64,000 nucleotides of DNA from Rheinheimera aquimaris (lineage in GTDB: Bacteria > Pseudomonadota > Gammaproteobacteria > Enterobacterales > Alteromonadaceae). The notes beneath the pieces were generated by a model. That model searched no databases, had not been told where the DNA came from, and worked only from the letters and a program-made list of their open reading frames with translations. The translations under genes and the position numbers were made by a program. Of the stretch, positions 2,720 to 46,935 are shown piece by piece (the stretch's first letter is position 1; each line of letters begins with the position of its first letter). The DNA is taken from assembly GCF_020531985.1 (NCBI RefSeq), contig NZ_JAJAVQ010000003.1:496001-560000 (forward strand), given 5' to 3'.

Positions 2720-2739
2720 AACAGCTAGATATGTCAGTT

Positions 2740-2786
2740 CTGTTTACAATTGAAGCCGCCAAATCCGGCTGTACATTTGTAAACAG
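2740..2786. promoter_or_regulatory. Inverted repeat, candidate activator site
   Basis: Perfect 10-bp arms CTGTTTACAA (2740-2749) and TTGTAAACAG (2777-2786) are separated by 27 bp, which itself holds a small AGCCG/CGGCT hairpin. The half-site recurs as ATGTTAACAGAT (2792-2803) and as a palindrome at 2846-2859. The repeat centre is about 75 bp upstream of the start site expected from the sigma-54-like promoter, a plausible place for an enhancer-binding protein. There is no T-run, so a terminator for fldB is unlikely. Confidence 0.5.
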
Positions 2787-2811
2787 ATGAAATGTTAACA
2801 GATTTTATTTC

Positions 2812-2827
2812 AGGCACAGAAATTGCT
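2812..2827 (+). promoter_or_regulatory. Candidate sigma-54 (-24/-12) promoter
   Basis: AGGCACAGAAATTGCT has GG (2813-2814) and GC (2825-2826) exactly 10 bp apart, matching the -24/-12 consensus TGGCAC-N5-TTGCW at all but the first base. The transcript would start near 2838, leaving a leader of about 50 nt with AAGGAG before the PEP-CTERM gene. PEP-CTERM genes in other bacteria are known to be controlled by RpoN with the PrsK/PrsR two-component system, which supports the reading; here it is inferred. Confidence 0.5.
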
Positions 2828-2845
2828 GTTATTACGCAAGCGCAG

Positions 2846-2859
2846 GCTGTTTAAACAGC
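2846..2859. repeat. Perfect 14-bp palindrome with the CTGTTTA half-site
   Basis: GCTGTTTAAACAGC is a perfect palindrome whose core CTGTTTAAACAG repeats the half-site of the 2740-2786 inverted repeat. It lies just downstream of the predicted sigma-54 start site and upstream of the Shine-Dalgarno, so a bound protein could repress, or the RNA could form a small hairpin. Confidence 0.4.
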
Positions 2860-2886
2860 GCGATTCTCAAGGATAAGGAGTCGGAT

Positions 2887-3804
2887 ATGAGTAACGTTTT
2901 ACAGTTCGGGCTGGCAGCAGTACTAATCGCGGGTAGCTTTCATGTGCAGGCAGCTTTGCCTGCTGGCACAGCGCTTTGCGACATTATGGATGTACAGGTA
3001 ACAAGCTATCAGAAACAAAATGGTTCAGGTTTAATTACGCTTGATCCCACTATCCCTGCCAGTGCCTGCCTGGGTGCTTATGCAGGTAATGACGCTAATG
3101 CCAGTTCGCAAGGTATTGGTGATAATCTCGGTTATGATACACATGGCTTTTTGAATGATAAAAGCCTGTTTGCCGATTACGGCGCTTTTATTGCCGAGAA
3201 TGAAATGCAGGATCTTGAGTTTGAAGGTAACTTTAAAGATCCGGGTTGGATTTACGTCGGCAAGCAAGATATGGGAGGCAGCTTCGATGCCGGTGTTGTT
3301 AAAAAAGGAGCAGATTCTTATACCTTTTCATCTGACATCTTAACGATGCAAAATTGCAAAGATAAAGACGGTGCAGCTACCAGTTGCAGTGCAGACGCCG
3401 TATCGGGTGAGTGGGTGTACAAACCACCACAATTTAACCCCGCACTGCTATTAGACTTACTGGGCATGGATAAATTTTTTGATCAGGTTGCAGTGGTATT
3501 TAAATCGGGTACTCAGTATGCAATTTATAACTTTAAATTATCAGATTTTGGTTTGCCGCCGGTGCTGGGCACTATGGACGCCAACTACATCTTCACCGGC
3601 ACCTGGGATATGTCGGACACCTTGCTGATGGAAAAAAAATGCAAGAAGAATGAAGTAGGTCCTTGCTATAGCAGCCCAGGGTTATCTCACGTGTCATTGT
3701 GGTTACGTGACCCAACCACAGCACAGGTGCAAGTACCAGAGCCTGCTACTGTAGCCATTCTGGGTTTAGGTTTATTGGGGCTGCGTTTACGCCGTAAACA
3801 CTAA
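2887..3804 (+). CDS. PEP-CTERM domain exported protein of unknown function
   Basis: A 305-residue protein with an N-terminal signal peptide (residues 1 to about 22) and a classic PEP-CTERM tail: a VPEP motif, a hydrophobic helix (VAILGLGLLGL) and a basic end (RLRRKH). By family knowledge the tail is recognised by an exosortase and removed as the protein is exported to the surface or into an exopolysaccharide matrix. The middle (about residues 25-280) resembles no domain I can name; it has scattered cysteines, including a CKDKDGAATSC segment. The start ATG 2887 has a strong AAGGAG 7 bp upstream. No exosortase or EPS gene lies in the window, so the partners must be elsewhere. It is a single-gene unit closed by a terminator. 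Confidence 0.9.
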   Translation: MSNVLQFGLAAVLIAGSFHVQAALPAGTALCDIMDVQVTSYQKQNGSGLITLDPTIPASACLGAYAGNDANASSQGIGDNLGYDTHGFLNDKSLFADYGAFIAENEMQDLEFEGNFKDPGWIYVGKQDMGGSFDAGVVKKGADSYTFSSDILTMQNCKDKDGAATSCSADAVSGEWVYKPPQFNPALLLDLLGMDKFFDQVAVVFKSGTQYAIYNFKLSDFGLPPVLGTMDANYIFTGTWDMSDTLLMEKKCKKNEVGPCYSSPGLSHVSLWLRDPTTAQVQVPEPATVAILGLGLLGLRLRRKH

Positions 3805-46718: not shown

Positions 46719-46935
46719 TTTATTATTTAAAATACTTCCTGCAAAACTCAAACCCTATTGCAAACGCAATAAGCAATAAAAATCGGTTAATTAAACCACA
46801 GGATGCGACAAGCGTACAGCTACAAGCGTTAAAAACTGTAAAAGGCCTTTACAATTTAAGTTGGCTTAGAAAAAAAATGCTTAGACGTCGATTTTTGAGT
46901 GTTGCAACTTCAGTTGCCCGGATGAGAAAAAGATC

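Follow-up and report, generated by a model that had tools for sequence, protein, structure and literature searches.

A probable PEP-CTERM box in Rheinheimera aquimaris: a predicted sigma-54 promoter with a putative PrsR site in helical phase and a candidate IHF slot

What controls the PEP-CTERM gene that lies behind fldB in Rheinheimera aquimaris, and which of the sequence elements crowded in front of it is the site of its regulator? In the window, the whole stretch of 64,000 nucleotides that was analysed, fldB (2201-2719) is followed by 167 nt of intergenic DNA and then, at 2887..3804 on the forward strand, by a gene for a PEP-CTERM protein of 305 amino acids (PF07589 30.4 bits, cut-off 20.7; TIGR02595 21.4 bits, cut-off 16). 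The PEP-CTERM sorting tail occupies residues 282-304 (3730..3798, forward strand), and the N-terminus resembles a signal peptide by eye. We propose, with a probability of about 0.86, that the intergenic DNA holds a PEP-CTERM box, that is, an enhancer-dependent sigma-54 promoter of this single PEP-CTERM gene, with PrsR predicted to bind at 2732-2748 and to be looped to the promoter at 2812-2827.

The sigma-54 type -24/-12 promoter AGGCACAGAAATTGCT (2812..2827, forward strand) consists of GG at 2813-2814, N10 and GC at 2825-2826, and this near-consensus box upholds the sigma-54-type promoter that a preliminary description of this DNA had placed upstream of the PEP-CTERM gene. The transcription start is predicted at 2838 (forward strand), 12 nt after the -12 GC, by spacing convention only. 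Haft et al. 2006 reported that PEP-CTERM genes of Proteobacteria are preceded by a motif of 17 nt with TTTACA at its end and, after a mean spacer of 62.8 nt (SD 10.6), by a sigma-54 motif, and predicted PrsR as the binding protein (PMC1569441). The corresponding motif 1 in the window is the predicted PrsR binding site TGTCAGTTCTGTTTACA (2732..2748, forward strand), a match to TGT-N8-TTTACA that also fits, but for one position, the consensus of related sites given below. It ends 63 nt before the -24(GG)/-12(GC) box and 64 nt before the first G of GGC, the point to which all gaps are counted here from the end of the 17-mer. The box in turn ends 59 nt before the start codon (2827 to ATG 2887), compared with about 71 nt (SD 38.5) in the 2006 set. 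The preliminary description had also listed a perfect inverted repeat with 10-nt arms (CTGTTTACAA at 2740-2749, TTGTAAACAG at 2777-2786), a near-copy of the arm (ATGTTAACAGAT at 2792-2803) and the perfect palindrome GCTGTTTAAACAGC (2846..2859, either strand), and all of them, like the box, are present at these positions. When 2720-2886 was shuffled 20,000 times with dinucleotides preserved, an inverted repeat with perfect 10-nt arms arose in 0.9% of the sequences, a perfect 14-nt palindrome in 1.2% and a -24/-12 box of equal quality in 0.27%, but TGT-N8-TTTACA in phase with a GGC-N8-TGC box arose in none (0/20,000). The single repeats are therefore only mildly unusual, whereas the composite of 17-mer and box is not due to chance.

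The proteins named by Haft et al. are all encoded in the genome above their cut-offs, namely PrsR (TIGR02915, 687.4 bits against 502.6; HTH_8 and Sigma54_activat domains), PrsK (TIGR02916, 524.6 against 300) and PrsT (TIGR02917, 482.5 against 312.2). The only exosortase found (TIGR02602, 170.8 bits against 105.55) scores best with the XrtA model TIGR03109, yet at 179.8 it stays below the curated cut-off of 208 for that subtype. The PrsK/PrsR system that the preliminary description had named from other bacteria is thus present, together with an exosortase. Unlike the tendency in the 13 genomes of Haft et al. (PMC1569441), which is not a property of the promoter, prsR does not lie beside prsK here: prsR is on contig C1 (C1:576868-578223) and prsK is on C13, where prsK, prsT, the sole exosortase found and two of the six box-bearing PEP-CTERM genes fall within 20 kb. 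By tblastn, the N-terminal part of PrsK has no counterpart in the 40 kb that surround prsR. In the best named relative of this PrsR, from Rheinheimera sp. 4Y26 (78%), a PrsK homologue is adjacent. Of 80 loci the 62 closer ones were examined, some of them incomplete, and in 52 of these a PrsK homologue is found no more than 4 kb from PrsR. With the genes lying apart, we infer the pairing of PrsR and PrsK in this organism from family membership only. A TonB/ExbB-like cluster is kept downstream of prsR, apparently as in Rheinheimera sp. 4Y26, judging by translations, gene order and lengths.

The PEP-CTERM tails above cut-off in the genome number 10, one being an open frame of 24 aa that lacks a start. 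Six of the ten matches are preceded by the 17-mer and an in-phase box, at gaps of 51, 51, 53, 63, 64 and 64 nt, which bears out the regulon envisaged earlier. An exact activator site was not found before three others; one of these shows no in-phase candidate even with a relaxed pattern, and the other two have degenerate in-phase candidates, TGTCGGTTTTTTTTTCA (gap 74) and CGTCAGAATAGTTAACA (gap 65), of a kind so common that they were left uncounted. The 17-mer pattern by itself is of little discrimination: TGT-N8-TTTACA occurs 41 times in the 4.23 Mb genome against 27 for the reversed control, so most copies are due to chance. A further match in the window is the near-palindrome TGTAAAAGGCCTTTACA at 46837-46853, which carries TGT-N8-TTTACA on both strands and has no convincing in-phase sigma-54 box. 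A looser composite, TTTACA-N48-78-GGC-N8-TGC, was discarded as too unspecific (48 matches in the genome against 7 reversed); by position, three of the 48 precede PEP-CTERM genes, the window's and two on C13. A separate observation is the near-perfect palindrome TGTAAACTCCGTTTACA at C9:792219-792235, with a sigma-54-like box TGGTCAGTATCTTGCT at a gap of 64 to GG. It is flanked by cytochrome-bd-like genes (by translation) and by a divergent histidine kinase/NtrC-type regulator pair, and this regulator is the second-best PrsR match (389 bits, below cut-off); the locus is perhaps a paralogous circuit with a similar half-site.

Comparison of the window's promoter with its orthologues offers little. 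Relatives of the PEP-CTERM protein were found in 3 of 30 congeners, all weak (30-38% identity), indicating poor conservation, and a separate scan of the genome contigs for a relative found none. One of the three relatives has a 17-mer, TGTCAGGATTTTTTACA, which lies some 240 nt ahead of the first ATG in the frame and has no GG-N10-GC at gaps 40-104; no 17-mer was found upstream of the remaining two. With only three weak relatives, none carrying both 17-mer and box, an orthologue footprint was impossible. The evidence beyond this genome comes instead from the pattern itself.

The strict composite pattern, TGT-N8-TTTACA followed at a gap of 44-74 by GGC-N8-TGCT, is present in 265 of 395 genomes of the family (reversed control, 6 matches). 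In a class-wide sample of Gammaproteobacteria, 362 genomes numbered into 180 families, it is present in 80 genomes with 128 matches (reversed control, 7). PrsR above cut-off was found in 104 of these 362, and the two go together: 66 genomes have both, 14 the motif only, 38 PrsR only and 244 neither (p = 3e-31), so that 38 of the 104 PrsR-bearing genomes show no strict TGCT-pattern match at gaps 44-74. The analysis covered 200 distinct sites, from 140 of 151 prepared regions and 59 earlier loci. A loose C-terminus pattern, rather than a profile, finds a PEP-CTERM-like tail in the open frame behind 105 of them (among the first 60 sites, a stricter pattern found 33), and behind 22 others the sequence read ends before the open frame does. 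The same 200 promoters contain 32 extra PrsR-like sites against 32.2 expected from shuffles, giving no sign of a second site. The 183 in-phase related sites yield the activator consensus TGTCRRnWWWnTTTACA, of which only the inner positions are informative, TGT and TTTACA having been fixed by the search pattern; position 4 is C in 93% of them. The window's 17-mer departs from this consensus at position 9 (C). We conclude that the locus is an ordinary member of the regulon predicted in 2006.

The activator site is placed almost only at whole helix turns from the promoter. Among the family matches listed, 150 from 55 genomes (one overlapping pair in one genome counted twice), 46 have gaps of 49-54, none 55-60, 90 have 61-65, none 66-68 and 14 have 69-74. 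The in-phase ranges 50-54, 61-65 and 72-74, drawn after the first histogram was seen, cover 13 of 31 possible values and contain 145 of the 150; in class genomes outside the family they contain 101 of 119 gaps. In the class genomes with PrsR, gaps of 74 or less are in phase in 108 of 113 cases (ranges of 14 of 31 values). Over gaps 44-100 the same genomes show five clusters with means of 52.5, 63.8, 74.8, 85.8 and 96.7, which hold 163 of 173 gaps in ranges covering 38 of 57 values. The step between clusters is 11.00 bp (95% CI 10.82-11.17, bootstrap over 81 genomes), and a periodogram of the gaps gives a best period of 11.26 (11.0-11.5) with a strength of 0.70 against at most 0.23 for uniform gaps. 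The step agrees with the helical repeats of 10.95-11.60 bp per turn fitted to in-vivo lac looping, as far as given in the text available of that study (PMC1762422). A second set of sites, with TGCA at the -12 element, was predicted beforehand, for a sample of the family, to follow the same rule; it was taken from other sites of the same 362 class genomes at gaps 44-74 only, and 54 of its 60 matches in PrsR-bearing genomes fall within the ranges (15 of 31 values). In genomes without PrsR, 10 of 15 TGCT and 8 of 12 TGCA matches do so, too few for a clean control, and R(10.5) over gaps 44-100 is 0.15 (n = 26), the best value being 0.42 at 12.05.

The spacers themselves carry a second positional signal. 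With the first G of the -24 box as the reference point, they show information peaks at -31/-32 and at -20 to -24, and most IHF consensus matches of at least 8/9 begin at -20 (±1) if forward and between -34 and -31 if reversed. If the 5' edge of WATCAR is the IHF pseudo-dyad, as we assume from the H' structure, both orientations share one centre at -20.5 (±1). Of 187 in-phase sites, 106 have a match of at least 8/9 to the published consensus in this slot and 81 have none, where shuffled sequences gave 3.0 matches (at most 8); among off-phase sites the figure is 1 of 13. In the TGCA set the slot is matched in 36 of 72 loci against about 1 shuffled, made up of 15 of the first 30 (0.4 shuffled, all in reverse orientation) and 21 of the other 42 (0.56 shuffled; 8 forward, 13 reverse). 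The IHF consensus lies on the right of a 35-bp site with A-tracts on the left, according to the accessible part of one account (PMC8421141), and the flanks on the A-tract side have A/T fractions of 0.78 and 0.76 against 0.61 outside. The window itself has a weak candidate core, TAAACAGATGAAA (2780..2792, reverse strand), which reaches 7 of 9, the chance of at least 7/9 in the slots for this spacer being 0.089. Scored with WATCAANNNNTTR, two of the six PEP-CTERM sites of its genome reach 8, three reach 7 and one 6 of 9. Taken together, the related promoters indicate that a DNA-bending protein probably binds at a fixed spot between activator site and promoter; no paper naming PEP-CTERM and IHF together was found in the open-licence PMC literature.

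The spacer element might instead reflect the intrinsic bendability of A/T-rich DNA, or a protein other than IHF, with the phasing arising from DNA shape alone. The spacers are indeed A/T-rich, and slot matches of at least 7/9 become fewer in the long-gap classes (7 of 15 at gaps 81-89, 3 of 11 at 95-100), as this explanation would have it. Harder to reconcile with it are a 13-nt consensus whose position varies by no more than one or two bases, both orientations implying one centre, and a signal about 35 times the shuffled expectation that was reproduced in the second pattern set; the A/T-richer flanks on the A-tract side also speak for IHF. We therefore regard bendability or another protein as improbable and prefer a bend by IHF.

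The repeats of the window allow another reading, in which the inverted repeat CTGTTTACAA/TTGTAAACAG is the operator of a different dimeric regulator, activator or repressor, and the 17-mer is incidental. The perfection of the arms over 10 nt, at the shuffle frequency given above, and the near-copy that follows at 2792-2803 lend it some appeal. It is still less probable than the preceding one, since the genome's five other PrsR-type promoters all lack the arm pair and all carry the 17-mer in the right phase; moreover, the right arm overlaps the IHF slot. Indeed, the right arm and the copy at 2792-2803 overlap the stretch that holds the IHF matches in related promoters, the right arm also overlapping the candidate core at 2780-2792. 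The preferred reading, a PrsR site at 2732-2748, agrees with the preliminary description as to the type of activator but not as to the CTGTTTA half-site it had taken from these repeats. The conserved unit begins 8 nt upstream of the left arm (2732 against 2740), and the repeats themselves are not that unit. At the other five promoters no activator site contains CTGTTTA (0/5), so that CTGTTTA/TAAACAG was rejected as a regulon signature; recurrence at the other PEP-CTERM genes of the genome, the check that had been set for the half-site, fails for CTGTTTA and succeeds for the 17-mer. Off the sites, CTGTTTA or TAAACAG occurs upstream of these genes at -370 in one case and at -32 in another. Its CTG lies outside the activator consensus, position 11 being G in 7% of the 183 sites, and on this alignment CTGTTTA is an accident of the window's copy, in which CTG falls on poorly conserved positions. 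The palindrome at 2846-2859 is unlike any PrsR site; it lies downstream of the predicted start, within the predicted 5' leader and just upstream of the ribosome-binding region, and would fold as a short hairpin, the leader fold (-12.5 kcal/mol, z -1.23) being not exceptional. The earlier view of RpoN and a PrsR-like activator at a PEP-CTERM gene was thus essentially right in kind and wrong in its half-site. Inheritance of the quantised spacing from a few ancestral promoters, rather than selection, is the least probable of the alternatives, for although the sample includes related genomes in which the same gene can recur, it spans 362 genomes across 180 families with five classes one turn apart, the 31 spacers of gap 64 share a mean identity of 31% with 1 of 465 pairs above 60%, so that equal length in unrelated spacers is not simple inheritance, and at one site per genome the periodicity persists, with a strength of 0.66 for a period of 11.2 bp and 78 of 81 gaps inside the cluster ranges, although these cover 38 of 57 values.

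Based on these observations, we propose a mode of action for the PEP-CTERM box. PrsR, with its receiver, AAA+ sigma-54-interaction and Fis-type DNA-binding domains, would presumably be phosphorylated through PrsK, bind the 17-bp site at 2732-2748 and then oligomerise. A short loop, some 70 bp of DNA, would bring it into contact with the RNA polymerase-sigma-54 held at 2812-2827, whose closed complex it would remodel, leading to transcription from near 2838. A loop below the persistence length of DNA would have no tolerance of torsional mismatch, so the activator would have to be bound on the side of the helix turned to the polymerase. IHF is proposed to bend the spacer in about half of these promoters, its pseudo-dyad lying some 20.5 bp before the -24 GG, with extra helical turns placed upstream of this bend. 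The PEP-CTERM protein may then be exported and processed by the exosortase of the genome. More generally, we consider it likely that PEP-CTERM boxes are three-part looping devices built by one rule across Gammaproteobacteria, in which the IHF site, whatever its orientation, is centred about 20.5 bp before the -24 GG (about -45) and the PrsR site lies further upstream, its distance being close to 53 + 11n nt (n = 0 to 4). If this is true, their natural variation amounts to an evolutionary looping assay whose readout, about 11.0 bp, is the helical repeat of DNA looped inside living cells of many families. In addition, the 17-mer consensus, the helical steps and the IHF centre would together allow the PrsR regulon to be predicted sharply, where the earlier motif was loose and its spacer broad, and the prediction would reach PrsR targets without a PEP-CTERM gene.

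Among the known systems, one comes from Aquincola tertiaricarbonis, a member of a burkholderial lineage. Its pepA gene shows RpoN1-dependent transcription from an experimentally mapped start, with a predicted enhancer upstream (PMC9850573). Like the window it thus joins a PEP-CTERM gene to sigma-54-type control, experimental there and predicted here; site spacing and IHF are not discussed in the parts of that account available to us. Closest to the window is the box of Haft et al. 2006, with the same motif 1, spacer of about 63 nt, motif 2, single PEP-CTERM gene, PrsK/R/T and exosortase (PMC1569441). In its text, as far as accessible, only a mean spacer is given, IHF, bending, looping, phase and periodicity were not found, and 'helical' occurs only in a reference. 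What is new here is the predicted architecture, helical steps and a fixed IHF centre, which is statistically well supported and was repeated in the second site set. IHF-assisted sigma-54 promoters in general have the IHF site between enhancer and promoter, according to the available text (PMC7962754); in PEP-CTERM boxes, by comparison, the predicted IHF centre is fixed to the -24 box, its orientation is free and the activator site moves in helical steps. A precedent for these steps is Vibrio qrr, where the loop lengths of 61 LuxO enhancers cluster about 11 bp apart (PMC4740811). Similar to the PEP-CTERM boxes, an NtrC-like activator there works with sigma-54, but the system is limited to one genus, sRNA genes, tandem LuxO sites and loops of about 80-120 bp, and the available text reports periodic A/T content and no fixed IHF site. 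The principle of helical clustering of sigma-54 enhancers is thus already known from Vibrio qrr, and PrsR is a second and much wider case, which extends it to another activator in many bacterial families.
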